Shown here: piece after piece, positions 1,603 to 22,446 of the stretch | How the letters are laid out: the number at the start of each line of letters is the position of its first letter | How positions within the stretch are numbered: position 1 is the stretch's first letter | Virus record (IMG/VR): IMGVR_UViG_3300036760_000036 | Coordinates: 1-49,532 of that record | Reading direction: 5' to 3' (one strand) | Length of the DNA stretch: 49,532 nucleotides | DNA from: a virus | Made by a program: the position numbers and the translations under genes | Notes under the pieces: generated by a model | Database searches by the model: none | What the model was told of the DNA's origin: nothing | The model's input: the letters and a program-made list of their open reading frames with translations, nothing else

Positions 1603-2961
1603 GTGCCCTACGCTTCCCAAAGAGACTGGAACACCACAGAGTTAGAGTACACAAAAACTCCGTGGCCGGTGCCTCCGCTCAATCTATTCTTGACGTCAGG
1701 CTACCGGCCTGGGGTCTTTGACTTGCGCTGGGACGATCCCGCCACGCTTGCTCTCAACAGCAAGTACAAGCTGTTGGGCGTCAACATTTACCGCTCGTTC
1801 GATTCTGAGTACGGCCCGTTCAACCGGATTTCCGAGCTTCTTGTGTGCTCGACGTTCTGGCGTGATCAGACCGACAACGAAGTAGTGATCGAAGAGGATG
1901 TGTCTGGGCAGTTCATTCTGAACGGGGAGTGCTCGGGATCAGGTGCGCAATCGCCCCGGTGGGTCTTCAAGACTCTGCACAGTCCTATCGTCAAAGAGGG
2001 ATCTCAGGCGGTGACCGCCGATCTGCCCGATGACGTGTTGGTCCACATCGACGGAGTGCCGGTTCGTCCGATGCGGGTCAATGGCTTCTCGGGTGAGATT
2101 GAGCTAGATCCGTTCATCTACGCGGACGTGGCGAGGCAGAAGCTGGACCCTTCTCTGGTGCCGGGACCCAACAGCCGGGTGACCTGCACTTACCGTCGTA
2201 ATCGGACGCTACTCAAGACTGACCTTGGGCAGCGGGTGTTCTACCGGATCACGACCGTTGGGGTTCGTAACAACTGTGACCTCTCTAGGGTGCAGTGCCA
2301 GGACCTGATCGAGACCCCTCTAGAGAACGCCACCGCTACGAGTTCCATGGAGATCGAGAAGATCGACTTCATGTGGCGTGAGGCGGTTCGGCGTAATCGT
2401 TTCATCTTGGAGCAGGGCGGGGAGAGGGTGAAGATTTTCCTACGCAAAAACGTAGGGGTCCCGTGCCCGTGTACTCCGGATGACTACCACAAGCAGCCGA
2501 TCAATGACTGCCGGATCTGTTATGGCACGGGGATTGTGGGTGGCTACGAAGGCCCCTACGACGCTTTGATTGCCCCCGATGATGCAGAACGTAGGATTGC
2601 CCAGAAGGACATTGGGCGGACTCTAGAGCACACCTACGAGGTCTGGACGGGCCCTATGCCCATCCTGTCGCAACGCGACTTCTTGGTGAAGATCAACGGG
2701 GAGCGGTATTCGGTGGGTGCTGTTAGGTTTCCGACTAATCGCGGGATGGTGCTCCAGCAGCACTTCAACATCGGGCATCTTGATGAGAAGGACATTCGGT
2801 ACCGTGTTCCGGTGGGTAACCCGGCCCGGTTCGCAGCTATCCAGTTTGCCCCCAATGGGCCTGAGCGTGAGGCGGACTCGAACATCACTGGCAAGCCCGG
2901 CATTCCGGATGAGCGTGAGTTGAGAGGCCGCAGCAAGGCTTGGGAAAACACGACTTTCTGA
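1603..2961 (+). CDS. Virion structural protein, probable neck/connector protein with Cys cluster
   Basis: A 452-residue protein starting at GTG 1603, with GGAGGG ten bases upstream. The N-terminal part contains a fibronectin-III-like strand pattern (LLGVNIYRSFDSEYGPFNRI). The C-terminal half holds a four-cysteine cluster, C288, C290, C303 and C306, the last pair in DCRICYGTG. This CxC/CxxCYGTG signature with a preceding long helix (VRRNRFILEQGGERVKIFLRK) resembles neck-region structural proteins of SPO1-like and other large myoviruses. The cluster probably binds zinc. Its stop codon overlaps the next start (TGATG), so translation is coupled. The exact neck role is inferred from order: upstream of the sheath and next to a gp10-like protein. 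Confidence 0.65.
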   Translation: MPYASQRDWNTTELEYTKTPWPVPPLNLFLTSGYRPGVFDLRWDDPATLALNSKYKLLGVNIYRSFDSEYGPFNRISELLVCSTFWRDQTDNEVVIEEDVSGQFILNGECSGSGAQSPRWVFKTLHSPIVKEGSQAVTADLPDDVLVHIDGVPVRPMRVNGFSGEIELDPFIYADVARQKLDPSLVPGPNSRVTCTYRRNRTLLKTDLGQRVFYRITTVGVRNNCDLSRVQCQDLIETPLENATATSSMEIEKIDFMWREAVRRNRFILEQGGERVKIFLRKNVGVPCPCTPDDYHKQPINDCRICYGTGIVGGYEGPYDALIAPDDAERRIAQKDIGRTLEHTYEVWTGPMPILSQRDFLVKINGERYSVGAVRFPTNRGMVLQQHFNIGHLDEKDIRYRVPVGNPARFAAIQFAPNGPEREADSNITGKPGIPDERELRGRSKAWENTTF

Positions 2962-3455
2962 TGCCTAAGCCGATCATAGCTGCGCGGGTTTACATGAAGC
3001 CCCTGTTACCCGATTCATTTAAGGGTGACACAGCTCTGATCTTGAGGCAGTCCAAGAATGAAGTGCTTAAGCGCCTTCGGGCCAAGCTCATGGGCACCGC
3101 GTTTTCCAAGCGAGCCAAGAAGGCTCTCTCGAAGGCGCTCAAGGTTGAGATTAAGACTTCAAGTCTTGTGGTAACGGTGGATCACCCGGCGTTTGAACCC
3201 TTGGTCAAGGGTCAACGCAAGGGGAAGATGAAGTGGTTGCTCAAGGCTAAGCGACCCATCCCTATCATCACGGATGACGGTAAGCTGATCTTCCGGACCG
3301 CCTCTGCGAAGTCCATGGGTACGAGGAAGCGTTGGGTGCACCCTGGTCGGCCACCTTCGGATTTCGTGGAGGGGGCCAAGCAAGATGCTCGTGAGGCTCT
3401 TAAAGCCAAGTTTGAGAAGGAACTGCGCAAGCAACTACGTGCTTCCTTCAGGTAA
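2961..3455 (+). CDS. HK97 gp10-like tail completion / virion morphogenesis protein candidate
   Basis: A 164-residue, strongly basic protein. I place the start at ATG 2961, overlapping the previous stop (TGATG); a TTG 21 bases upstream is also in frame but lies inside the previous gene. A helix-rich N-terminus is followed by the segment IKTSSLVVTVDHPAFEPLV. Near residues 120-140 come RKRWVHPGRPPSDFVEGA and then an amphipathic helix ending the protein. The W-x-HPG-x-P-x-x-F-x-x-x-A pattern is typical of gp10-like tail completion proteins. Such proteins sit at the head-tail interface, which fits the gene order. Assignment is by motif resemblance only. Confidence 0.55.
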   Translation: MPKPIIAARVYMKPLLPDSFKGDTALILRQSKNEVLKRLRAKLMGTAFSKRAKKALSKALKVEIKTSSLVVTVDHPAFEPLVKGQRKGKMKWLLKAKRPIPIITDDGKLIFRTASAKSMGTRKRWVHPGRPPSDFVEGAKQDAREALKAKFEKELRKQLRASFR

Positions 3456-3458
3456 CCC

Positions 3459-4103
3459 ATGACCTGGTTCGGTAGACTTTTACGAAGGGTTGGATTCATG
3501 CAAATACCCAGAGCGGGGGGTGACATCCGGGTAATCGGACTCGTTTCTCCTACACATTTGATCGAGGACATTGGGCGAGACGTACCACATGGGGTGGAGG
3601 TGGTGATCCCTGTGGACATGGCGTTGCGGTCCAAGGACTTGTGGCGGGGTATCAGTCAGCACGCTTTGGCGCAACTGCCCACGATCGCTACTACGGTTCC
3701 GAAGCTTTCCGCCCCAGACCCGGAACGGCCGCGTCTTGAGGCCAGGGTTCGGGAACTGGAATCGGTGGTTCGAGACCTGGAGACACAATTGCGTGTTTCA
3801 CAGGCCGAAAGCTTGTCTCTCAGGTTTGAATTGGAGCGTAGCACCCAAGCGCAAGAGCACGCTGTAAAGTTGGATACCATCTTGGCGGCTTTGCAGAACG
3901 GGGTAGTACCCACTGCGGGGCGTCCGTTGGCGGCACCTCGGCAAGAGGTAGCGGACGGGTCTGTCCCGACGTTCTTGCCGTCAGAAATCAAGCCGAGAGA
4001 CGTGACGGTCCGCATCGACATCCAGGGGGAGTCGTCTCAATCCGATGTGTCGGGGATTGGGGATCGCCTGCGTAAGATACGCAACAAGGAGGGCAGCCTG
4101 TGA
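3459..4103 (+). CDS. Structural/connector-region protein with central coiled coil
   Basis: A 214-residue protein. ATG 3459 is three bases after the previous stop. ATG 3498, with GAAGGG upstream, is an alternative start that would remove a basic amphipathic N-terminus. Residues 20-70 look like a compact beta/alpha module (DIRVIGLVSPTHLIEDIG, then VEVVIPVDMALRSKDLWRGI). Residues 88-135 are a clear coiled coil (RVRELESVVRDLETQLRVSQ). The tail is charged and probably disordered. No family recognised. Location suggests a neck or connector component. Confidence 0.6.
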   Translation: MTWFGRLLRRVGFMQIPRAGGDIRVIGLVSPTHLIEDIGRDVPHGVEVVIPVDMALRSKDLWRGISQHALAQLPTIATTVPKLSAPDPERPRLEARVRELESVVRDLETQLRVSQAESLSLRFELERSTQAQEHAVKLDTILAALQNGVVPTAGRPLAAPRQEVADGSVPTFLPSEIKPRDVTVRIDIQGESSQSDVSGIGDRLRKIRNKEGSL

Positions 4104-4134: not shown

Positions 4135-4164
4135 TTGATAAAGTTTTCTTATGTCAGCTCTTAT
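4135..4164 (+). promoter_or_regulatory. Candidate sigma70-type promoter
   Basis: TTGATA at 4135-4140 and TCTTAT at 4159-4164 are separated by 18 bases. They match the -35 (5 of 6) and -10 (4 of 6) consensus. A start about seven bases downstream would give a short leader into the CAGGAG ribosome binding site before ATG 4199. The stretch 4104-4198 carries no gene I can support. Weak evidence; phage late promoters may be unrelated. Confidence 0.25.
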
Positions 4165-4198
4165 GCTGATCACCCAATTTCTGTCCCAGGAGCCCCTC

Positions 4199-4507
4199 AT
4201 GCACCCACGTCAAGCCAGCGTACTCGTTCAGGCCACCGAAGTTGCCGATCGTCTTGCAGCTAAGAAACAGTCCGAGAAGAAGCCCGGAGGGCCCGTTTTG
4301 CTGTGGAAGTACACGGATCCCGACGGCAGCGTCTTTTACCTTGACGAGAAGAAGACGACGATCAAGTCCCCTTTCTCAGGCAAGTCCTTCGCGGCTCGTC
4401 CTGAGCGTCACACCCCAGCTCAGGTTGGCAAAGAGATGAAGGACGAGGCCAAGGCTGATAAGGCCAAGGCTGCGCCCAAGACTGCGTCGAATTTCTGGAA
4501 GGCCTGA
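4199..4507 (+). CDS. Small Lys/Ala-rich hypothetical protein
   Basis: A 102-residue protein. I choose ATG 4199 because CAGGAG stands six bases before it. The longer in-frame start at 4151 has no ribosome binding site and would overlap the candidate promoter. The central part has a small beta hairpin-like stretch (VLLWKYTDPDGSVFYLDEKK) followed by PFSGKSFAARPERHTP. The tail is Lys/Ala-rich and likely flexible. The central stretch resembles WW-like or zinc-free beta modules, but I do not recognise a family. It is followed after one base by the Dps-like gene. Confidence 0.6.
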   Translation: MHPRQASVLVQATEVADRLAAKKQSEKKPGGPVLLWKYTDPDGSVFYLDEKKTTIKSPFSGKSFAARPERHTPAQVGKEMKDEAKADKAKAAPKTASNFWKA

Positions 4508-4508
4508 A

Positions 4509-5417
4509 ATGGCCGAGAGTTCGACGCACGCGATTTGGGTAGACCCGCTCGCGTTTGATTCACTTGAGAATGGGCCCCCGTACTTGCCGGAACGACCGAG
4601 GGTTATGATGGCAAAGAACGCCAATTCGATTGAAGTGCTCCAGCGAGTGTGCGGGGCCTTTGCGGGCATGGCTATGGCGGAGCTGGGCGCTTTGGTGGCG
4701 ATCTTGAGGGCAGCCTCGATCGTTCACCAAAGCCACCACTGGCAGACCCGGGGTGGCAACTTCTTCGGGGATCACCTGTTGTTCGATCGCCTCTACAGTG
4801 AATCGGTAGGCTTCATCGATCAAGTGGCTGAGCGTGCCGTGGGATCCGGGAGTCGGGATCTCGTGTGCCCGAAGACTCAAGCGGGTTTGATCCCTGAGGT
4901 GGTCAACTACTGGTGCGGTAGCATTCAAGAGCCCACGTCTTTCGATATGGTCGTCGTGAGCCTTGGGGTTGAGCGTTGTGTGCTCGATTGCCTCAAAGAA
5001 GCACGTGGGAGTCTTGAGACAAAGGGCCTTCTCACGGACGGCACCGACAATCTGCTTCAAGGTGTAGCGGACAAGCATGAGGAATTCCTCTACTTGCTGC
5101 AACAGCGTCAAGGGGGTCGGATGGCCTCGTACCAGTACAAGCGTACCGCTGGCAGCACTTCTGAGGAGCGTTCACGTCGGAACAAGGTGAACGACGCTCT
5201 GACCAAGATGTCCAAGGTGTACCACAGGCATCTCCCGATCCAGGAGATCCGAGACCTTCTTGAGGCTAACGGCTTCGACACCTCAGAGCTTGAGGGCATC
5301 TACACGGGTCGGGATGGGAAGTCGCATGACAAGGTTGGGGAGCACACCTATCTGAGCTTGTCATGGCACAAGATGGAAGAGTCAGGGAACTGGGAAATCA
5401 CGGCGTACGTGAGTTGA
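4509..5417 (+). CDS. Dps-like ferritin-fold protein with extra C-terminal domain
   Basis: A 302-residue protein with GGAAGG ahead of the ATG. Residues 50-200 match the Dps/ferritin-like four-helix family. HHW at 76-78 is followed by RGGNFFGDH, then LFDRLY and IDQVAERAVG. Candidate ferroxidase ligands H77, H89, D104 and E108 have spacings of 12, 15 and 4, identical to H51, H63, D78 and E82 of E. coli Dps as I recall them. Dps proteins bind iron and often DNA and protect against peroxide. The C-terminal 90 residues (starting KVNDALTKMSKVYHRHLP) are an added domain I do not recognise. The gene sits between connector genes. Whether it acts in the infected cell or inside virions is unknown. Confidence 0.75.
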   Translation: MAESSTHAIWVDPLAFDSLENGPPYLPERPRVMMAKNANSIEVLQRVCGAFAGMAMAELGALVAILRAASIVHQSHHWQTRGGNFFGDHLLFDRLYSESVGFIDQVAERAVGSGSRDLVCPKTQAGLIPEVVNYWCGSIQEPTSFDMVVVSLGVERCVLDCLKEARGSLETKGLLTDGTDNLLQGVADKHEEFLYLLQQRQGGRMASYQYKRTAGSTSEERSRRNKVNDALTKMSKVYHRHLPIQEIRDLLEANGFDTSELEGIYTGRDGKSHDKVGEHTYLSLSWHKMEESGNWEITAYVS

Positions 5418-5478
5418 GTGCGTGCCTAAAAACCCTCCTCGTGGCACAAGGGGCAAAAATCAGATTGGACAGGATCAA

Positions 5479-6498
5479 ATGGCAAAAGTATCAGGTTACA
5501 GGCATGGTTGTGGGCTTGACGTAGGTACGATGAATCTTGTTGCCGCTAGGCAGACAGGAGACGGCCAGAGCGTTGAGACCAAGCGGATTCGAGACGCCTT
5601 CATCGACCTCGATCTTGAGGCCAAGAAGACGCTTCGCTTGTCCAAGGTGGACTACGTTGAGAAGGACGGGCAGCTCATCGTGTTGGGCGACTCAGCCCTC
5701 AACATGGCGAACCTGTTCAAGCGGGAAGTCCGTCGGCCCTTGAGCCGTGGCGTTATCTCGGCCGGTGAATTGGATGCTCAACAGATCCTGAGCCTGCTCA
5801 TCTCGAACGTCGTGGGTGAGCCCGTGACGCCCAAGGAGCACTGCTTCTACTCGGTGCCAGCGGCTCCTGTGGATGACGAGAACCAGGACATCATCTACCA
5901 CCAAGAGGTGTTCCGTAAGATCCTCGCGGAGCTGGGGTACACCCCGCATCCGATGAATGAGGCGATGGCGATCATCTACAGCCAGTGCGCCGAAGAGAAC
6001 TTTTCTGGGCTTGCGGTGAGCTTCGGTTCTGGCATGGGTAACATTGCCCTCGCGTACCAGACCGTCAAGGGTATGGACTTCTCGGTAGCGAGGGGTGGGG
6101 ACTGGATCGATACCCATGCCGCTAAGGCCACGGGTTCTACGTCTGCCCGCATGTGTACGATCAAAGAGAAGGGCGTGGATCTCGCGAACCCGAAGAACCG
6201 GGATGAGGAAGCGCTGGCGCTCTACATCCGGTCCTTGATCAAGTACGTGCTGGAGAACATCGCGATCCAGTTCAAGAAGGTTCAGTCCTCGTTGGATCTG
6301 CCGGAACCCATCCCGTTCATCGTGTCAGGCGGCACCAGTCGGGCGGGCGGCTTCATGGAAGTCTTCATCGATGAGTTCGAGGCGGTGAAGAAGCGTGGCT
6401 TCCCCATCCAGATTAGCGAGATCAGGTCCGCCAAAGACCCCATGACCTCCGTCGCAGAGGGCCTCTTGGTCCTGGCGATGGAAGAGCACGCGGGGTGA
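5479..6498 (+). CDS. Actin/Hsp70-superfamily (ParM/MreB-like) ATPase
   Basis: A 339-residue protein. ATG 5479 is chosen because GGACAGGA precedes it; a GTG at 5422 gives 19 extra, low-complexity residues. The actin-fold landmarks appear in order. The phosphate-1 loop is GLDVGTMNLV near residue 12. The phosphate-2 loop is LAVSFGSGMGNIAL near 179. The adenosine motif is FIVSGGTSRAGGF near 281. Such proteins polymerise (ParM, MreB, phage Alp proteins) or act as chaperone-like ATPases. The spacing suits a ParM-like size. It lies between the Dps-like gene and an endonuclease within the neck cluster. A role in DNA or particle positioning is an inference. Confidence 0.75.
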   Translation: MAKVSGYRHGCGLDVGTMNLVAARQTGDGQSVETKRIRDAFIDLDLEAKKTLRLSKVDYVEKDGQLIVLGDSALNMANLFKREVRRPLSRGVISAGELDAQQILSLLISNVVGEPVTPKEHCFYSVPAAPVDDENQDIIYHQEVFRKILAELGYTPHPMNEAMAIIYSQCAEENFSGLAVSFGSGMGNIALAYQTVKGMDFSVARGGDWIDTHAAKATGSTSARMCTIKEKGVDLANPKNRDEEALALYIRSLIKYVLENIAIQFKKVQSSLDLPEPIPFIVSGGTSRAGGFMEVFIDEFEAVKKRGFPIQISEIRSAKDPMTSVAEGLLVLAMEEHAG

Positions 6499-6502
6499 TC
6501 CT

Positions 6503-7138
6503 ATGCGACCATGCCGAAAATGCGGCGCAATGGATCGGCAGCCGAGTGGCCATTGTCGTCCGTGTAGCAAAGCTAGACATAGAATCCTTACAGAGGGGTT
6601 GGTTAACAAACCGTGTGTGAGGTGTGGTGCAACAGAACGGAATAAACGTGGTGGTTGTAAAGCGTGTCAACGTGCTCGTAAAAAAATCTGGCTTGAAGCC
6701 CCTGGTAACCCCCAGCCTTGCGTGAAGTGTGGCGCTATAGATCGCAACAGGTTTGGAGATTGCATCTCGTGTTCCAGAGAGCGCTCAAGGGAGTGGGCTA
6801 GAGAAAACGTGGTCCGGGCATCTTCTCAAGTCCAAGCGTGGCGGGCAGCCCACCCAGAAAAAGCTGTCGAGATGGATCTAAAGGTTAGGCTCAAGCGTTA
6901 CGCCCTAACCATTCAACAGTTTCGGAGTCTCTACACCTTACAGAAGGGGTTGTGCGCAATTTGTTCCGTGCTTCTACCGAGACGCTTTGATATTGATCAT
7001 GATCATGAGACTGGCGTGGTGCGGGGTTTACTTTGCCACCCTTGTAACATTGGTTTAGGTGGTTTCAAGGACAACCAGGACACTTTATTTAGTGCTATTC
7101 AGTATCTGAAACTCCATACCCTTCAGAAGGTTGGGTAA
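6503..7138 (+). CDS. Endonuclease VII-like HNH endonuclease with three zinc ribbons (homing type)
   Basis: A 211-residue protein; GGGGTGATC precedes the ATG. The C-terminal domain matches the recombination endonuclease VII family (T4 gp49-like). It has C151/C154 in CAICS, the DIDHDHETG active-site block at 163-171 and CHPCN at 178-182. The N-terminal third has three tandem units of the form C-x-x-CGA-x-[DE]R-x3-G-x-C-x2-C, each a probable zinc ribbon for DNA recognition. The gene is fitted between two structural genes: four bases after one stop, with its TAA sharing a base with the next ATG. Codon use is more A/T-rich than its neighbours. A free-standing homing endonuclease is the best reading; Holliday-junction resolution cannot be excluded. 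Confidence 0.8.
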   Translation: MRPCRKCGAMDRQPSGHCRPCSKARHRILTEGLVNKPCVRCGATERNKRGGCKACQRARKKIWLEAPGNPQPCVKCGAIDRNRFGDCISCSRERSREWARENVVRASSQVQAWRAAHPEKAVEMDLKVRLKRYALTIQQFRSLYTLQKGLCAICSVLLPRRFDIDHDHETGVVRGLLCHPCNIGLGGFKDNQDTLFSAIQYLKLHTLQKVG

Positions 7139-8334
7139 TGTACTATTACCTTGTCCAGGCCCTCAAGCGCCGCCTTGTCCTAGAGTTGCAAGACAGCTTC
7201 TCGAAGCATCCAATTTACGAGAAAATAGTACCCTTCATCCAGAACCGTTTCGCGTTCACAGAGCGCCCCCAGATGGGGATCGTCGTCAAGGGTTCGAGCG
7301 CGAATAAGGTTCAGCTCTCGGCCGACAACTTCTTGGGGTCGGTGGAGAGCCACGTGATGCTGGCCTATGTGGGGGCTCCCGTGTACCCGATCGAGTGGGT
7401 GCGTGAGGATCTGGCGTGTCTGAATGCCAACCACGGGGTGATGCCGACGCCCCCAGGCATCTACTACCTAGAGATCATATCGGCCCCGGAGAACGCTCAA
7501 TCCGAGGGCAGCTTTATCGTGGATCCGCTCCTGACGGTCAATGATGAAGCGGTGCTGCGTTTCATTTCGGGGATCGAAAATGAGGCTCAGCTTCAACGCC
7601 TGCCCGTGCAGGGGACGTTGCGGCTTTGGGAGAATCGTAAGTTCCTGTTGTCCGAGGGCACGCATTACCGTGTGGACTACGAGACAGGGGCGATCGAGCT
7701 GCTGATCCGGTCCGCAGCCGGATCGGTGCTGACCGCTGACTACCGCTATTCGGTACCTTCTGTGGGCCCTGTTTCGTACCAGTGGAACCGCTCAGATTTC
7801 ACAACGCTCCCTGGGGTCGTGTTGGCTTTCGGCAAGCGGGGCAAAGCGGGTGATAAGGTTGCGATTGTTGTCTACGAGGATCGGGTTGAGACGGCCCAGG
7901 CGTATGGTGGCCGCTTTGACGCGACGTTCGAGCTGGATGCCTTGGCTCGCGATCCTACGCAAATGGAGGAGTTGGCTGACCTGATCATTATGTATCTGTG
8001 GGGGCAGAAGCGCTCTGTTCTGTCTTCTGAGGGTATTGAGATTACGGACATTTCGATGGGCGGCGAGGCCGAAGAAATCTACGACGAAACGAGTGATGAC
8101 TCCTTCTACAATGCGTCGCTCTCGATTCAGATGCAGGCCGACTGGGAGATCCACATCCCGTTGCCCTTGACCGTTAGCCGGGTGACTCCGACGACAGCGC
8201 TAACGGACAAATCTGCCAACCCTCTCGACACACAACAGGCCACGACGATCATCAATGACGTTCAGAACAAGCTGTTCTTTGCGACGATGCCGGTCATTGC
8301 GGGGCGTAACAACAACTTTGAGAGGATCCTGTGA
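7138..8334 (+). CDS. Virion structural protein (neck / tail terminator region)
   Basis: A 398-residue protein whose ATG overlaps the endonuclease stop. It is beta-rich with few charged helices. A helical block, RDPTQMEELADLIIMYLW, is followed by EGIEITDISMGGEAEE near residues 275-320, a pattern I associate with tail-terminator or neck proteins of SPO1-like phages. The C-terminus contains a helix (QQATTIINDVQNKLFF). It lies directly upstream of the sheath, apart from the GIY-YIG and zinc-ribbon genes, which supports a neck role. Precise function not proven. Confidence 0.6.
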   Translation: MYYYLVQALKRRLVLELQDSFSKHPIYEKIVPFIQNRFAFTERPQMGIVVKGSSANKVQLSADNFLGSVESHVMLAYVGAPVYPIEWVREDLACLNANHGVMPTPPGIYYLEIISAPENAQSEGSFIVDPLLTVNDEAVLRFISGIENEAQLQRLPVQGTLRLWENRKFLLSEGTHYRVDYETGAIELLIRSAAGSVLTADYRYSVPSVGPVSYQWNRSDFTTLPGVVLAFGKRGKAGDKVAIVVYEDRVETAQAYGGRFDATFELDALARDPTQMEELADLIIMYLWGQKRSVLSSEGIEITDISMGGEAEEIYDETSDDSFYNASLSIQMQADWEIHIPLPLTVSRVTPTTALTDKSANPLDTQQATTIINDVQNKLFFATMPVIAGRNNNFERIL

Positions 8335-8972
8335 CGCAGCATACGCACAAAGGTAAAGCTACTTTGGTCTATGCTGCCGTATGCTTGTCTAACGGTAAAC
8401 TATACTTTGGAATTACATCCAGGTCCTTGGCTAGACGGCGGTCGGCACACTTAGCGGATAAGTCACGCGCAAGATTCCATCAAGCTCTCCGTAAGCACAC
8501 CCCGTCGAACTTCATCTGGGTGGAAATTATACGTACAGAAACGTGGGAAGAGGCTTGCAAGTGTGAGTCCTTCTTGATTGCTTTCTACCAAACTACAGAG
8601 CACACCTACGGTTACAATGGGACATTAGGAGGGGATGGCTCGGTAGGCTATCGACACACCCTTGAAGCCCGGCAAAGTATGCGTTCCAAAAGAGTTGGAA
8701 AGAGTACGTGGTCTAAAGGGGTAAAGATGACCGCAGATCAACTAAAGTCTAGGCTTGGTAATCAAAACCACTTAGGAAAAAAGCATTCTGTTGAGACGAA
8801 ACAACGGATGAGTGCGCTCGCGAAACGCTTAAAGACTCCTGCTCATACTATTCGGGTAGTTTTGCAGGAAGAGTCTGTTTTAGGGGTCAGTGCTGTCGCT
8901 CGAAAATTCGGAGTGTCTAGGAGTTCTGTTTATAAATGGAAGGCGATGTGTGATGCCACGCTATTCGTTTGA
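8331..8972 (+). CDS. GIY-YIG homing endonuclease with NUMOD3-like and HTH DNA-binding modules
   Basis: A 213-residue protein with a GTG start overlapping the previous stop (GTGA). The N-terminal GIY-YIG-type domain shows VYAAVCLSNGKLYFGITSRS followed by RRSAH and a catalytic-type Glu in CESFLIAFY. The middle has NUMOD3-like units (HTLEARQSMRSKRVGK and GKKHSVETKQRMS). The C-terminus is a helix-turn-helix (VSAVARKFGVSRSSVYKWK). This is the classic architecture of free-standing phage homing endonucleases. Its base composition is more A/T-rich than flanking structural genes. The 3' end overlaps the next gene by 20 bases. Confidence 0.85.
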   Translation: MTQHTHKGKATLVYAAVCLSNGKLYFGITSRSLARRRSAHLADKSRARFHQALRKHTPSNFIWVEIIRTETWEEACKCESFLIAFYQTTEHTYGYNGTLGGDGSVGYRHTLEARQSMRSKRVGKSTWSKGVKMTADQLKSRLGNQNHLGKKHSVETKQRMSALAKRLKTPAHTIRVVLQEESVLGVSAVARKFGVSRSSVYKWKAMCDATLFV

Positions 8973-9560: not shown

Positions 9561-12500
9561 ATGGCATTGGGTCCATTCATTTCATACGCACCCCCGGGTG
9601 TTTACACTCGTACCCTGACTGATACCAACGCCTCAAACTTGGTCGCTGGACTCAGGATCCCGGCACTGATCGGCGTCGGTCAGGAAGAACTGGAACAGGA
9701 CGACTTTGAGCTTGTCCGTGGTTCCAGCTCTACGGTTGACCAGCAGATTGTCAACGAGGACGAGTCTGAGAGTTGGGTGGTCGATGCGACCAACCCCAAC
9801 AACCTGATCCTCGGGGTTCAGGATGGCACCTTTACGACGATCCGGGTTCGTAACTTTCCGATCGTAGACGGTCAAGGCTTTGGCCGGGTCACCAATGACG
9901 TACGGTCGGTCACGGTGACTGTGAATGAATTGCCGGTTTCTTTGGGTGCAGTTCAAGGTCAGAAGGGTCTTGTGACCCTTCAGGTTCCGACACAGCCAAA
10001 TGATCGTGTCCGGGTCACCTACTTCTTCCACCGTGGTGACACGGCGTTCACGGATGACGTGTCCGAGCAGGTCACGGTCGAGAACGCCTCGCTGATTACG
10101 CCTGGCTACGCGCCCTTCGACATCACGACTGGCACCAATGACCAGTTCATCATCAACGTGAATGGTGTCGTGGCGACCATTGTGCTGCCTCAGGGCAGCT
10201 TGAACGCGGCGACGCTGGTTTCGGTCATCAATGCAGCGTTGGTCCCGAATCTCTCGACCTCGGTTTCCACGGATAACCAGGGCCAGGATCACGTTCAATT
10301 CACGACCCCGGTCGGTATCACGATTGGGGATGGTACGGCCAACGGGCCCCTTGGGTTCACGTCCGGGACGGCGACCAATCGTACCCGTGCGTTCCGCGTG
10401 TTTCAACGTCCTATCGTGGACGGGACGGGCGGCGGTACCACGACCACGGATACCTCGAAGGTGGTGGTCAAGGTTGACGGTACTCAGGTGCTGGCTTCAG
10501 CGGTTAGCGGCAGCCTGGGCATCGTGACTTTGCCCTTCGCTCCGGCCCCCGGTTCGACCGTTACCATCAACTACTGGGCGAACACCTGGCAGGACACGTT
10601 CGATTACCTGCCCAACAGCCTGGTGACGACGGTGCTGCGTTGCGGTATCTCGCCTGGTCGTAACGACTATATCCAGGGTACGGACTTCGTAGTTGCGAAT
10701 CCGACCACGGATGTTTCGGTCATCAACTGGGGCTCCAGCTTCCAGGTGGCGGCTGCCACGACAACGCCTGGTGCCACTCCGTTTGACGGGGCATCGGGTT
10801 CCGGTGGTCAGATCGTCGGCACACTGATTGACGATCAGATGTACCTGGGTGCTTGCACTCGGGTGACCAACACAAGCACGATCCCGGCCACGGTATCGAG
10901 CACGGACTTCTTGCTGCCTGAGGTTCCGACCACGGGTAACGGCCGGAGCACCACGTTGGGCTTGCCGACGTTTAACTCGGTGGCCAACTCGCGTCAGGAT
11001 CTTGTAACGAACCGCCCGGACCTGGTGGTGGTTTACACGGGTCGTACATTGCGGGACGCTCTCAATCGTCCGGCTGTTCCTGTCACGGTTGTCGATGGTG
11101 TGAACCGTCGGATCGTGCTCAAGACCCCGCAGCCGCCGGACTACAACGCCTACGCGACCTTCTACTACAGCCGTCTGGCTGATGACACGTTCATCTTCAC
11201 CAACACGGTGGCGGGTCCGGTAGGTTCGGGTCAGTACACGGTCTTCTCGACCACCCGTGATGCCAATCTGTATGAAGCGAAGTTCGGATCCAAGACGGGT
11301 AGCCAGATCATCCAGTGGCCTCGTGGCGTGGAGCAGATCCCGGATGCGTTCCACACGGGGGACGGTGCCCCCGCCGCTGAGGTGGTGACCGTTACCTTCG
11401 GTACGGCGGCAGCCCGTAACGCGGCCTACACGAACAAGGGCGGTTCGCCGTACTCGTTCTACAGCCCGTTCTCGGCGACCTGGACCACTCAGGTCAACGG
11501 CGTCAACCAGGTCTCGAACTTGGCGGCGGCGGCCCGGGCTTGCATGGTCGGCGGTCATGTGACCCCGGCAACCGGCGTGCCTCAAGTCACGATTCCGGCT
11601 TCCCCCAACAACGTGCTGAATCTGACGATCGATGGTTTCCCGATCGCCCCGATCAGCATCACTGCGGGTCTTCGTACCCCGGTCCAGATCATCGCGGATA
11701 TCAATGCGGCGATTGACGCAAACGCCAACTTCCTCGGTACCGCTCCGAACAACCTGGCGAGCTTCAAGCAGGTCGGTCCGGCCACGGGTGACATCTTCTT
11801 CATCATCAAGGGCCTCGAAGTTCCGGGAGCGCTTCCCGGCGGGTTCGATGATGTGGCGAATGTCACGATCAACCAGGGCACCGTTGAGACAACGCTTGGT
11901 TTCACGACCTTTGCGAGTGTCAACGGCACCACGAGCGCCATCAACAAGCCTGCCACGATGCTCGGTTCCCTCGCGGGTCCGTTCAACATCACGGCTGGTC
12001 TGAACGACGCTTTCAGTGTCCGCGTCAACGGCGTGGACTACTCGATTACGCTGACGGCGGGTCCGGCACAAACCGCTGCGGCGGTGGTGGCGGACATCAA
12101 CGCGGTGGTAGCTTCTGTGGCTAGCGTGGGCACGGGGGCGAACCTGAACAAGGTTCGTTTGACCTCAACCACGAACGACTCGGGTTCGGCTATCCTGATC
12201 AACATCGGGTCTGCAAACGCGGTTCTTGGGTTCACCCAGAACCAGTTCGCTAGTCAGACGTTGGTTGAGGCACAAGAAGTGGTAGATGTTCTCATGGATA
12301 CGGCGGGTTACGCGACGGGCGCTGTGGCGTACGTGGCTCCCATCAGCGGCAAGAACTACATCACGTTCGAGTCCTTGACCGTGGGTGCCGCCACCTCCTC
12401 AATCGGGTTTGCAAACTCCGCAAACTCGGCGTTCAACCCGACCACGGGTACGAACATCACGCCTGGCACTGACGGCGATGTTGGCGAGGATGCCCAGAAC

Positions 12501-17664: not shown

Positions 17665-20600
17665 ATGCCTAATCTTTCAGAGCGCGTTTCCCGTCGGGTT
17701 CTTGCAGACGAGCTTGATCCTGATGACAACATCGGTGAGCTTGAGATCGCAGAGTATCTCGTGTTCATGCTCGCTCTCGATACGTACACTCGGTACGTTG
17801 AGGAAACGGCAGGCCCCGACGTGGAAGACGACCTGATTCGTAAGGGCATCATGCTCATTCGGCTCGCGGATCGTCAGCACCTGGCCACCATCCAAGCCTT
17901 CTTGGGTGACAACCTTCCGAGTGCCAACCACAAGCGGATGTTGGACAAGGCTTTCCGGTTTGTGGCTACCAACACGCAAGGCTTGGGTCGGCGGAGCCTT
18001 CAGTTGCGTACGCTTCTTTCGAGGGGCGGGGCTTCTACGATGCGAGCTGTGTTCAAGTCGAACAAGGCTTTGCTGGAGGTCAAGGCGGCGTTGGCGGCCT
18101 CTATGGTGGATGACGCGGATGCAGCGCTCGATAAGTTTGCCGTCATTCCGATGAGGAACCAGCGTTTGCGTAAGTGGATCGACGTAGCGGCTGAGACGGC
18201 TGGTTCTGGGTCGTTTCAGAACGCGGTATCGGTTGGCGGAGACGAGGCGGCGGCAGACCTCGATTCCTTGTACGCGGCCAAGGCTCAACAACAGGCTGCG
18301 ACCCCGGCTTCTGAGGACAGCCAACAGGCTTCGGACCAGCACGCGCAGATACTCTTGGACATGCAGACGCGGGCCACTGGAGCGGCTCAGAGGGCCATGG
18401 AAGTCTCGGGGGAGCCCGATGTGCCTCCGAATAAGTCCGAGGTTGTGGGCATTGCTACGGCGGCTGTGGCGGCTGCCATGACGGACCCCAGCAAGTCCAC
18501 CAACGTTCCAGCTTCTCTCCGGAGTCTGGATGAGGAACAGCAAGCGGCAGCGCTCACCGACGGCAAGGTCTTGGTGGCAGCCGGTGCGGGTGCTGGGAAG
18601 TGCATTCGAGGGGATACTCTTGTTCAAACCGTTAGAGGGATGATCCCAATTCGAGAGTTTGCAGAGCACCTGGCCGCGAACGAAGAGTCAGAGTTGGTTG
18701 AGACTGTGTTGGGCTTAGGTGGTCCAGAAAAGACCAGCACTATCCTGAATAACGGGCGTCGAAGCACGATTAGGTTGACAACCCATCTAGGGTATCAGAT
18801 TGAAGGTACTCCTAACCATCCTCTTTGGGTATTGCGGGATGGGGAGCTTCAATGGGTAGCACTGGGGCAGGTCGAAAGTTCAGACTTTTTATGCATTGAT
18901 CGTCGAGCAGGGTTGTTTGCGGAGGAACCGTTTCGTGTTTCTGAGCGTGCGTTTGTCAAAGTCACTAATTCAGAGCCTTCCAATATACCCGTTGAGTTGA
19001 CACCACAGGTTGCCTCTCTTCTTGGTTACATTGTAAGTGAGGGCCAAGTTGTCTACGGGCATCATTCCGTTGTTAACTTGACGACCACGGACGAGGCACA
19101 GTTGGGTCTTTACAAGACTTCTGTAGAGGGTATCATCTCAAAGTGGACTGCTTTCTATGACGAATCTGAAAAGCATTGGTGTCTGAAGTTCTACCGCAAG
19201 GCGAATTTAGAAGCCCTTGCTGACTTTGGGCTCACTTATTCACTTGCCTACGATAAAGAGGTTCCGGTTGGGGTTCTTAGGTCCCCTAAAAAAGTTGTAG
19301 TGTCTTTTCTTCGTGCCCTTTTTGACGGGGATGGCGGGTTCTACCGAAGCACTGTTTACTATGACAGTTCAAGTGAAAAGCTTGCAAGGCAGATCCATCA
19401 ACTACTTCTGTCCTTCGGTATCGTGTCGGCGTTACGCTTTAAGCCTAATGACAAGAGAGGGTGCTGGAACATTTCGTTGACTGGGGACAATGCCAGGCTG
19501 TTCTTGCGAGATATAGGTTTTAACCTAGTCGCTAAACAACAGGCCGCCGAATCGGCGTTGAACGATCTAACCTCGAACCCTAATCTTGACGTCTTTCCTG
19601 GCATCTCTCATTTGTTTAGGGAGGTGCATGAAGAGGCCAAGGGCGCTGGCTTACACCCTACGCTATACCCTGAGTACGGGGCTTTTAAATGTTGCATCAG
19701 TGGCACAAGGAATGCATCAAAGCCTACGTTACTGAAATTCCTACACGCCTACCCGGAGTCTAATACCCCAGCTCGTGCCGCTCTTCAGAAGTTTTCAGAA
19801 ACACCCTGGTTCTATGACGCGGTGGGTATCTTAGAGGACTCTGAGGCGGAGGTCTACGACTTCGTAGTGCCTGGCACTCACTCATTTTCCGCTGGTGGTT
19901 TTGTTAACCACAATTCCACCACGCTCGTGGCTCGCATTGACTACTTGGTGAAGGAACGCAAGCAGAATCCCAACCGTATCCTTGCGTGCTCGTTCAACCG
20001 CAAAGCGGCTGATGAACTCAAGGGTAAGATTGCGAAGAAGCTGGGGACCGATGGCTCCGATGTCGGGGTCCAGGTCGGCACTATGCACTCGCTGTTCTAC
20101 AAGTTCATCACGGGGGACCGTCAGGTGCCTGGTTTCGGCACACCTGAGGAACAGGCGATGCTCAAGCCGCCCCGTCTGATCGCGCCACCCAAGAAGGGCG
20201 TGCGGTCCGTGAGTCCGACCACGATTTCAATTGCGATCCGTAACATCTGGACCAATTGCGACGTGGAGGGCTTGGCCAGACGGTTCGGCTTCCCCGTTGA
20301 ATGGCTGGTGGAGCCCCCGAAGGCCAAGAAGGCCAACCTGCTCTTGAACAAGTGGCGTGGCAACGACGTGAGTCTCGAAGAGGCTAAGAAAAAGGTGACC
20401 TCGAAGGCGGAAGCCCAGGCGGTCGTTTGGTACGAGATGTATATGGGCGTCAAGGGTGACATCCCTGGGTGGCGTCCGCCGTGTGTGTCACCGGCTTACG
20501 ACAACTTCATGAAGAAGAATCGTCCGGGTGGTGAGCGTCTAGGTGATCTTGACGACATGCTCAAGGTGTTCCAGCAGATCTTGAAGCGGGACCCGAAAGC

Positions 20601-22446
20601 CAAGGCAATGGTCCAGGGCATGTTCGACCATTTCTTGGTCGATGAGTGCCAGGACTTGAACCTTGTGCAGCATCAGATCTTCGAGTTGATGACCGAGCAC
20701 ATCGGGGATGGCTCTGACGGCAAATCTCTGTGGATGATCGGGGACGATAAGCAAGCCATTTACCAGTTTCGTGGCGCTCGTCCTGAGCTGTTCACGAGCC
20801 TCGATGGTAAAGAGGGTTGGAAGACCCGGATGATCAAGACGAACTACCGTTGCGAGCCGGAGATCGTTGATGCTGCCAATCGTTTGGTTGCCCACAACGA
20901 TGGCAACATCCCTATGGAAGCCCGAGCTAACCCTAAGAAGGCTAGGGGCAAGGCTTCTATTATCGTGGACACGCCAAGCGACAACACGTCGGCGGCGATC
21001 CAGACTATCGGTCGTGTGGTCAAGGACATCGCGACCGAAGATGCGAAGGCTGAGGACTACGCGGTTCTGGCACGCACCAACGCAGAGTTGAACGACTTCG
21101 AGACTGCCTGCATCATCAACGAGATCCCCTACGTGCGGCGTGGTGGTAAGGGCTTCTTGGAGGCCCCTGAAACCAAGGCAGTCTTGGGGTATATCGACCT
21201 GATCACGGGCAATGACTATGAGAAGATGAAGGGCTCTCTCGTGTCGGCGCTCATGAAGCCCGATCGTGGCACCTACCTGGGTCCTGACGATGTGGCGAAG
21301 GCTGTGGATGAGGCTCTCGATGACCTCTCCAGGCGTGAGCGTGTCGATATCAGGTCCGTGAGCCCTATGGCCTTGTTGGAGAGCCGCAACATCCGGCTTC
21401 TTGCCGACAAGCTCAAGCAGCCGTACAGGCTCAAGATCATGGCCTCCGCTCGTGGCGATGTCCGCAAGGGCGAGTGGATGTACGGTAAGCGTGTGGACGA
21501 GCTGGCTGACAACCTCAAGGGGATGGCCAAGAATCTGCGGGATTTGTCCGCGTTCGTGGCGGCTGGGGACAACAGCACGGACAAGCTGCTGGACTACATC
21601 CTTGACAGCATGACCTCAGTGGTTTCAGGTTGGTCCCGTGAGCGGGGTGCCTACACGGAGACCAGCACGTTGCGTGAGCAGATCACGCATGACACCGCTA
21701 TCTTCGCCGATGACGACGGGGATGAGGACGAGACTGAGACAGAGGAAGTGGTGCCGGAGGTTGGTGAAGAAGGTTTGCTAGGGGTCAAAAAGAAGGAGGA
21801 CGTACCGGGCAAGGGTCTGGGTGCCGTTCAGTTCCTGTACCAAATGGCGGTTCCTAACGATAACGACCAGACCAACAATACAGACCCTTCTACGGCTCAA
21901 GGGTTTGTGAGCAAGATTGCCAGGTACTCGAAGCTGTCGGAGACTCTGCGGATCGACCCCGAGAAGTGGGAGAAGGATCAGAACAAGATCGCGGATCCTG
22001 GGCAGCGTCGGGCGAAACCCCCGGCCATCACGCTTTCTACGGTGCACTCGGTCAAGGGTCTTGAGTGGCCTAACGTTTCGGTGTTGATGCCTGCGGGTAA
22101 GTTCCCGCCTGTGCGTAGGCCTCGTCCCAATGAGCCTCCACCTGATCCGGTGGAGGAAGCGGAGAAGTTGAAGGCTGAGCGCAACTTGGCGTATGTGGCC
22201 TTGACCCGAGCTGCCGTGAATCTCGAAGTGTTGTGCCCCATGGTTTCGGATAACGGCATGGAGGCGGGCATCAGCCGCTTCGTCCGTGAGGCTGGTTTGC
22301 ACGAGGGGGAGAACGTCCCCAAGGGCGAGGTGTTCGAGTCTGGGGAGAAGACGGCTGCTGTTGAGGCTGTGGACCCACACGTGTTGGAAACCATCGAGCG
22401 GTACGCCGATGAGATGCCCGCAACGTATGATCGGAGGGGGTCATGA
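17665..22446 (+). CDS. UvrD/PcrA-type SF1 helicase interrupted by an intein
   Basis: A 1593-residue precursor, 1155 residues after splicing, with GGAG before the ATG. Superfamily 1A motifs appear in order. The Q-like motif is LDEEQQAAAL. Walker A is AAGAGAGK|STTL, split by the intein. Motif II is VDECQD near 992. Then come GDDKQAIYQFRGA near 1026, NYRCEP near 1060, TVHSVKGLEW near 1459 and AYVALTRA near 1512. These helicases move 3' to 5' on ssDNA and act in repair and recombination. About 290 residues precede the helicase core and match nothing I know; they are helix-rich with a Gln/Ala-rich linker. The C-terminus overlaps the next start (ATGA). The gene lies in the accessory island, not in an obvious replication cluster. 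Confidence 0.88.
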   Translation: MPNLSERVSRRVLADELDPDDNIGELEIAEYLVFMLALDTYTRYVEETAGPDVEDDLIRKGIMLIRLADRQHLATIQAFLGDNLPSANHKRMLDKAFRFVATNTQGLGRRSLQLRTLLSRGGASTMRAVFKSNKALLEVKAALAASMVDDADAALDKFAVIPMRNQRLRKWIDVAAETAGSGSFQNAVSVGGDEAAADLDSLYAAKAQQQAATPASEDSQQASDQHAQILLDMQTRATGAAQRAMEVSGEPDVPPNKSEVVGIATAAVAAAMTDPSKSTNVPASLRSLDEEQQAAALTDGKVLVAAGAGAGKCIRGDTLVQTVRGMIPIREFAEHLAANEESELVETVLGLGGPEKTSTILNNGRRSTIRLTTHLGYQIEGTPNHPLWVLRDGELQWVALGQVESSDFLCIDRRAGLFAEEPFRVSERAFVKVTNSEPSNIPVELTPQVASLLGYIVSEGQVVYGHHSVVNLTTTDEAQLGLYKTSVEGIISKWTAFYDESEKHWCLKFYRKANLEALADFGLTYSLAYDKEVPVGVLRSPKKVVVSFLRALFDGDGGFYRSTVYYDSSSEKLARQIHQLLLSFGIVSALRFKPNDKRGCWNISLTGDNARLFLRDIGFNLVAKQQAAESALNDLTSNPNLDVFPGISHLFREVHEEAKGAGLHPTLYPEYGAFKCCISGTRNASKPTLLKFLHAYPESNTPARAALQKFSETPWFYDAVGILEDSEAEVYDFVVPGTHSFSAGGFVNHNSTTLVARIDYLVKERKQNPNRILACSFNRKAADELKGKIAKKLGTDGSDVGVQVGTMHSLFYKFITGDRQVPGFGTPEEQAMLKPPRLIAPPKKGVRSVSPTTISIAIRNIWTNCDVEGLARRFGFPVEWLVEPPKAKKANLLLNKWRGNDVSLEEAKKKVTSKAEAQAVVWYEMYMGVKGDIPGWRPPCVSPAYDNFMKKNRPGGERLGDLDDMLKVFQQILKRDPKAKAMVQGMFDHFLVDECQDLNLVQHQIFELMTEHIGDGSDGKSLWMIGDDKQAIYQFRGARPELFTSLDGKEGWKTRMIKTNYRCEPEIVDAANRLVAHNDGNIPMEARANPKKARGKASIIVDTPSDNTSAAIQTIGRVVKDIATEDAKAEDYAVLARTNAELNDFETACIINEIPYVRRGGKGFLEAPETKAVLGYIDLITGNDYEKMKGSLVSALMKPDRGTYLGPDDVAKAVDEALDDLSRRERVDIRSVSPMALLESRNIRLLADKLKQPYRLKIMASARGDVRKGEWMYGKRVDELADNLKGMAKNLRDLSAFVAAGDNSTDKLLDYILDSMTSVVSGWSRERGAYTETSTLREQITHDTAIFADDDGDEDETETEEVVPEVGEEGLLGVKKKEDVPGKGLGAVQFLYQMAVPNDNDQTNNTDPSTAQGFVSKIARYSKLSETLRIDPEKWEKDQNKIADPGQRRAKPPAITLSTVHSVKGLEWPNVSVLMPAGKFPPVRRPRPNEPPPDPVEEAEKLKAERNLAYVALTRAAVNLEVLCPMVSDNGMEAGISRFVREAGLHEGENVPKGEVFESGEKTAAVEAVDPHVLETIERYADEMPATYDRRGS
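18601..19914 (+). mobile_element. LAGLIDADG intein in the helicase Walker A motif
   Basis: This 438-residue intein is in frame between Lys312 and Ser751 of the precursor. It starts with Cys1 in CIRGDTLVQT (block A), has TPNHP (block B), and ends with VYDFVVPGTHSFSAGGFVNHN followed by Ser+1 (blocks F/G). All splicing residues are present. Two LAGLIDADG dodecapeptides are visible, LLGYIVSEG near precursor residue 452 and FLRALFDGDG near 548, so the homing endonuclease may be active. Its codons are more A/T-rich than the exteins, a sign of recent acquisition. Boundaries come from the Walker A consensus GxGKST. Confidence 0.92.

Follow-up and report, generated by a model that had tools for sequence, protein, structure and literature searches.

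Dps proteins encoded by phages are already known. The part of PMC8008677 available to us describes DPS from Gratiaviridae and from 36 further phage genomes, cites Lactobacillus phages, and treats phage DPS as a helper of the host cell. Two further bodies of work concern proteins that accompany phage or other invading DNA. According to the accessible sections of PMC5694885, Alt and the internal proteins of T4 bear a short capsid-targeting sequence, and a bolus of proteins is ejected from the heads of jumbo phages. The accessible text of PMC5512222 names ADP-ribosyltransferases (ARTs), peptidases, and helicases as injected with invading DNA, UvrD being among its conjugative-element examples; the words Dps and ferritin are absent from that text.

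A literature search on Dps and ferritins of jumbo and huge phages, with most subscription journals and bioRxiv outside its scope, found nothing specific to such a family. Word searches met neither 'Dps' nor 'ferritin' in the main text of the jumbo-phage overviews PMC7824862 and PMC13282480, or in the large-phage lineage paper PMC12619734. Among the seven papers found to name 'Volactin', none has a title or listed abstract about phages.

Here we describe a Dps gene in a viral sequence from IMG/VR (the window: the whole stretch of DNA analysed, 49,532 nucleotides). On the evidence of its sequence and structural model, the product of ORF 4509-5417 is a Dps-family mini-ferritin from a lineage of huge tailed phages. 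Our best explanation of the whole, to which we give a probability of roughly 55%, is that this huge-phage Dps forms shells, oxidizes iron, is tagged for the virion, and is delivered with the genome. The computed part of this explanation consists of the fold, the ligands, their conservation, the synteny, and the tag statistics.

The Dps protein and its metal site

The gene and its parts are these:
4509..5417, + strand: phage Dps-like ferritin gene, 302 amino acids (ORF, Pfam, PHROG, and PDB matches)
4533..4592, + strand: conserved N-terminal peptide W-x-D-P-..-F/Y-..-G-P-P-Y-L-P-E, residues 9-28
4665..5108, + strand: ferritin/Dps four-helix domain, residues 53-200 (model pLDDT mostly above 90; BC helix 121-135)
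4737..4742, + strand: H77-W78, first ferroxidase ligand and Dps H-W pair (alignment to E. coli Dps; family alignment)
4773..4787, + strand: ferroxidase ligands H89 and D93 (alignment to E. coli Dps; family alignment)
4818..4832, + strand: ferroxidase ligands D104 and E108 (alignment to E. coli Dps; family alignment)
5118..5150, + strand: tail R-M-A-S-Y-Q-Y-K-R-T-A, residues 204-214, a degenerate Y-S-Y-D-R-R copy between the ferritin and extra domains
5163..5414, + strand: C-terminal domain, residues 219-302, its first part matching PADR1_N (only in the window and one relative, locus L002)

The original prediction, a phage Dps-like protein, is upheld by database matches and by a model that best matches solved Dps structures. 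Pfam Ferritin (PF00210) covers residues 58-197 at 2.6e-5, marginally above the curated cut-off; phrog_3636, annotated 'DNA binding protein', matches at 1.2e-11; and the best PDB sequence matches are Dps proteins (2d5k, 4.6e-7; 1n1q; 1ji5). The NCBIfam Dps equivalogs score below threshold, the best giving 30 bits against a cut-off of 114.

Structure prediction, among the checks proposed with the original prediction, gave a ferritin/Dps-like fold rather than one unlike ferritin. In the AlphaFold2 monomer, built with a 34-row alignment (A3), pLDDT exceeds 90 over most of the stretch from about residue 41 to 200, which contains four long helices and a BC helix at 121-135; a short helix in the B-C loop is a feature of the Dps family. 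Foldseek returned 65 matches at E<=0.001, and the best 50 of these 65 are Dps-family chains. In VIA-align the model reaches Z 17.1 (rmsd 2.6, 144 residues aligned) to M. smegmatis Dps2 and Nostoc Dps4 (5hjf). Bacterioferritins score 15.8-16.8, near the Dps chains, so the fold alone cannot tell Dps from bacterioferritin. It is the ligand pattern and the H-W pair, read from the sequence, that set the ORF apart as a Dps. A viral structure library gave as its top match a Dps from an uncultured Caudovirales phage (6e-8). The model also aligns with entries labelled 'Prohead protease' and 'ParB/Sulfiredoxin', labels which suggest that other phages may fuse Dps to head proteins.

The predicted metal site, H77, H89, D104, and E108 with 12-15-4 spacing, held up in full. 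Phmmer places residues 69-115 on residues 43-89 of E. coli Dps (1f30, 1dps), equal lengths without a gap; thus H77, H89, D93, D104, and E108 fall on E. coli positions 51, 63, 67, 78, and 82, which we take to be the ferroxidase ligands. The ORF therefore contains the set H-12-H-4-D/E-11-D-4-E together with the H-W pair.

Conservation was assessed in a family gathered from two IMG/VR searches, a first that gave 16 loci and a second, with the neighbouring volactin protein, that gave 52. An HMM search of both locus sets and of the phage record LR745208.1 yielded 60 sequences, or 40 unique ones including the window after identical or contained sequences were dropped; this set still holds near-identical pairs and truncated members (L003, L024, L054). 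The source contigs reach 416 kb, some being short fragments, and LR745208.1 is 485 kb. Exactly one Dps match was found in 13 of 16 records searched whole and none in the other three (G008, G014, G015); the records may be fragments. A scan of bacterial and archaeal genome contigs confirmed no cellular relative.

H77, H89, D104, and E108 are identical in all 34 rows of alignment A3, where E stands at position 93 in 24 rows, D in 8, and M in 2. Wherever the 40-member set covers them, the same four residues are again identical (38/38, 38/38, 39/39, and 39/39, respectively). Of the 148 core positions 17 are invariant, and four preset ones would all be among them with a chance of 1.2e-4. In all except the two nearest members, identity to the window protein drops to 29-63%, and the alignment indicates that the metal site is kept by selection despite this divergence. 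The best reading of sequence and model together is that the Dps of this lineage is ferroxidase-competent.

Both ends of the protein depart from this conserved core, and in the model confidence is low at both (pLDDT about 50-66 for the N-terminus and the C-terminal domain), so that a structure search with the C-terminal domain is of little value. Ahead of the ferritin domain stands the motif W-x-D-P-x-x-[FY]-...-G-P-P-Y-L-P, whose P13 and P24 are identical in 36/36 covered members; GPPYLP is absent from every other ORF of the loci searched. The DNA-binding N-terminal tail of E. coli Dps is rich in Lys and Arg. A tail of that type was not found in this family, in which the N-terminal extension, at a median net charge of -2 (from -7 to 3), is not basic, and DNA binding in the manner of E. 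coli Dps is, on this composition, doubtful.

The C-terminal domain of about 90 residues, also part of the original prediction, is real in the window and is not a family trait. PADR1_N covers residues 219-260 in the full-length Pfam search, and reaches 4.7e-6, above cut-off, when the domain is searched alone. Residues 217-302 have one counterpart, 90.6% identical, on contig IMGVR_UViG_3300022744_000131 (L002); tblastn over the loci collected and a viral contig scan found the domain nowhere beyond these two. It follows the tail at which the Dps of other members terminates (L003 stops at GGRTASYSYRRTP), and we read it from these comparisons as a recent lineage-specific fusion.

The assembly block and the volactin neighbour

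Dps is flanked in the window by two conserved genes:
4151..4507, + strand: small gene upstream of Dps, 118 amino acids, conserved in most relatives, product ending KTASNFWKA
5422..6498, + strand: volactin-like actin gene, syntenic partner of Dps (PF25216, 262 bits)

The gene order 1238 - 1603 - 2940 - 3459 - 4151 - Dps - volactin - 7138 - 8890 - 9561 is kept in 16/16 IMG/VR loci as far as each extends (L009 has no match to 4151, and two loci are short). Upstream DNA of 1500 nt or more is available at 44 of the 52 volactin loci. Dps precedes volactin in 39 of these 44, and the median distance to the first aligned codon of volactin is 39 nt. L032, L061, L064, L068, and L069 lack an upstream Dps, and the record of L061 has it elsewhere. 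Dps is visible in 3 of the 8 loci with less than 1500 nt upstream. In two relatives, G013 and LR745208.1, Dps lies away from the assembly block. The annotated phage collection contains only two volactin relatives, both in huge phages.

In relative G001, the genes upstream of the block match a portal (phrog_16240, 3.9e-12), a major head protein (phrog_2522, 1.3e-48), and, inside an intein-bearing ORF, a head maturation protease (phrog_18299, 2.2e-6), which places Dps within a virion-assembly block. (In that ORF, L077:10637-14911 on the minus strand, the protease match is split by an intein and LAGLIDADG domains.) Peptidase_S77, sought as prohead protease, scored above cut-off in 0 of 16 records. 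On the tail side, the 1425-residue product at 9561 is presumed from its position to be the tail sheath, and has no telling family match. The prediction had set Dps 'among neck genes'. Its place in the virion-assembly block is confirmed and conserved across the lineage, and the block extends from genes of the head side as far as the presumed tail sheath; the neck assignment itself is less firm, the Neck1 match of gene 2940-3455 being weak (PHROG E 0.075). Taken as a whole, the earlier interpretation keeps its Dps fold, intact site, and assembly-block position, and its suggestion of packaging gains indirect support from a terminal tag (below); the C-terminal domain is not supported as a family trait.

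Several local variations were seen. In L005 (5674-6639) the upstream 118-residue gene and Dps form one open frame, a natural fusion. Endonuclease genes at 6503-7138 (Endonuclease VII-type) and 8331-8972 (GIY-YIG/NUMOD3), the second overlapping the zinc-ribbon gene at its listed start (8890), are both missing from the otherwise collinear L002 locus and are probably mobile insertions. A glutamine-rich, very acidic protein without a family match lies upstream of the major capsid protein in L077 (9336-10568, minus strand) and in L082 (G006), and is a scaffold candidate.

Position in the block might reflect late expression only. Dps would then be an ordinary late intracellular stress protein, absent from the virion and directed against Fenton chemistry around phage DNA or in the infected cell. 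This would accord with the Dps-like proteins of other phages (Cronobacter, Aeromonas), with the host protection proposed for gut phage DPS (PMC8008677, in its available part), and with the location of the gene elsewhere in LR745208.1 and G013; the persistent position by volactin and the terminal tag shared with other proteins (below) would need a further explanation, and we regard the proposal as unlikely. Synteny with volactin and head-tail genes would also suit a Dps-fold protein that is a structural or assembly factor, such as a neck component or volactin partner, with iron chemistry secondary, as would an N-terminal peptide different from the Dps DNA-binding tail. For a purely structural role, however, ferroxidase ligands that are all invariant at 29-63% identity (most members) would be needless, and this second proposal seems to us quite improbable.

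A tag at the ends of unrelated proteins

Many tails in the Dps family end in Y-S-Y-D-x-R, in forms such as YSYDSR, SYDRR, YDFR, and YKYDRR. YDxR falls within the last 12 residues in 15 of 40 Dps tails; in a looser sense a Y-type motif is present in 26 and absent from 14. Among the 836 proteins of two whole contigs and the window, YDxR falls in the C-terminal 12 residues of three, each a UvrD helicase orthologue. The window tail, RMASYQYKRTAG, carries a degenerate tag (YQYKR; L002 has YSYRR), so the packaging case for the window protein rests on its relatives.

Two other terminal motifs were considered as tags and rejected. C-terminal D-x-W-K, present on several Dps tails, the 4151-4507 gene product, and a head-cluster protein, occurs 26 times versus 4-21 for controls, which is not significant; N-terminal F-E-x-A-L-[RK] is not enriched (7 versus 3-7). 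A W-K motif, often after K-x-A-S, replaces YDRR on the Dps tails of L036-L039, L042, L043, L062, and L067, and the upstream protein 4151-4507 of the window ends in it too. The small proteins encoded at 527-829 and 852-1220 have a common N-terminal stretch, P-V-K-A-F-E-x-A-L-R-x-A-S, with which the ORF after Dps in L003 (525 onward) also begins.

The consensus M-Y-[ST]-Y-D-R-R recurs at the termini of unrelated proteins in these phages. A census of YDRR took in the window, five complete contigs, and the greater part of another (G002 380001-396539 was left out); it used stop-to-stop ORFs, which include spurious frames for the motif and its controls alike and are cut at the borders of 20-kb pieces. 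YDRR occurs 49 times in total, versus 7-26 for each of its 11 permutations. Counts at most 8 codons from a start are 24 for YDRR (one of them, L110:376-843, lying inside the presumed sheath) and 20 for all 11 permutations summed; for the C-terminal 10 residues they are 10 and 9.

With their tags removed, 30 tagged proteins have no mutual similarity save for two helicases. A domain scan of 30 tagged proteins (alignment A4) found one ART-PolyVal (2.1e-12), one SprT-like (3.6e-7), and weak matches at best for the rest; most tagged proteins are without a known family. N-terminally tagged proteins such as L115:6488 and L113:15714 were considered as ADP-ribosyltransferases, and only L002:724 has a Pfam or PHROGs match to support this; the others are left out of the count. 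The helicase of the window is:
17665..22446, + strand: UvrD-family helicase with intein, ending ATYDRRGS (PF00580, 8.7e-36)

Four of its six orthologues end in YDRR plus at most two residues; those of G005 and G010 do not, and that of G004 has the motif at both ends. The gene sits within the tail-side block. Its 1593-residue ORF had been considered as the tape measure protein, which the Pfam assignment to UvrD helicase rules out.

That the tag is genuine and bound to the lineage is best supported, at the sequence level, by a DNA pattern scan of 2.9 million IMG/VR contigs for exact M-Y-[ST]-Y-D-R-R with fixed TAC/GAC codons. It found 14 stretches on 10 contigs, encoding 9 distinct protein families, versus 0 for a control with Y and D swapped. 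Dps and volactin are both present on seven of the ten contigs; two of the remaining three have tagged proteins identical to those of G002 and look, by that identity, like fragments of the same phage.

A T-A-S-like motif often lies beside the tag: [TVMIL]A[SAG] follows 16 of 32 N-terminal tags (21 from the 30 compared proteins and 11 picked elsewhere, with tagged orthologues left out), versus 3.8% of background windows. This candidate site, a statistical one, would fit removal of the tag by the prohead protease. As a genome-wide protease site, [KR]TAS was rejected: it occurs 11 times versus up to 10 for permutations in G001 and 10 versus up to 10 in G009, and is weak in the window.

Possible delivery with the genome, and known parallels

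A tag common to Dps and other phage proteins hints at a ferritin in the virus particle. In our preferred explanation, Dps would form a hollow shell that oxidizes Fe(II) with peroxide or oxygen and keeps the ferric mineral; the C-terminal Y-S-Y-D-x-R tag, in much of the lineage, would mark proteins for the virion in the style of T4 capsid targeting; and packaged Dps, travelling with the genome or leaving the particle with it at ejection, would clear Fenton iron from the surroundings of the phage DNA. By analogy, Dps is probably packaged and delivered with the genome: ART-PolyVal, SprT-like, and UvrD proteins share its tag, and these belong to classes known as injected.

The tag could direct something other than packaging. 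It might be an address for a replication compartment, a chaperone, or volactin filaments. It is known only as a recurrent terminal motif, most of its carriers are of unassigned function, and many lie outside the structural block; the carriers with known domains (ART-PolyVal, SprT-like, UvrD), however, are of injected classes. We regard such another address as rather less likely than not. In its most general form the packaging reading holds that a tag at either end (Y-S-Y-D-R-R, often with a T-A-S-like flank) sends unrelated proteins into the particle to be delivered alongside the genome, with Dps, an ADP-ribosyltransferase, and a UvrD helicase among them. We advance this generalization tentatively, at somewhat less than even odds.

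If it is true, the virion carries a ferritin that detoxifies iron, a phage counterpart of the ferritin cargo found in encapsulins. Should the tag be a packaging address, it would also supply a sequence rule for predicting which proteins uncultured phages inject, and a virus would be shown to carry an iron-oxidizing ferritin in its particle. Independently of the tag's meaning, a ferritin is a near-constant part of the huge-phage assembly block, often with a lineage-specific terminal tag, and its pairing with a volactin-like actin becomes a testable question.

Compared with bacterial Dps (E. coli 1dps/1f30, 2d5k, and Nostoc Dps4 5hjf), the huge-phage protein has the same four-helix fold, BC helix, and H-W signature, with its ligands in register; it differs in having the conserved W-x-DP..GPPYLP peptide at its N-terminus in place of a basic tail, and in a C-terminal tail that resembles the tag. 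PHROG 3636, the Cronobacter and Aeromonas phage Dps, and the DPS of Gratiaviridae and Lactobacillus phages are likewise phage-encoded members of the Dps family, although identity, compared at the sequence level, is 28-41% over only part of the protein. The Dps of LR745208.1, a huge phage of 485 kb, is 29-30% identical, has the same ligands, and shares its genome with a volactin; unlike the window protein, it lacks the full-length N-terminal extension and the tail tag, and lies about 140 kb from volactin.

The T4 capsid-targeting sequence (PMC5694885, as far as its available sections describe it) is likewise a short terminal peptide on unrelated proteins, and the N-terminal copies of the huge-phage tag are, in the same way, followed by a possible cleavage motif. 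The huge-phage tag, a putative packaging address, differs in sequence and occurs at either terminus. Polyvalent proteins (PMC5512222, in its accessible text) include ART, peptidase, and UvrD helicase classes that are also found among the tag carriers, which here are mostly separate small proteins.
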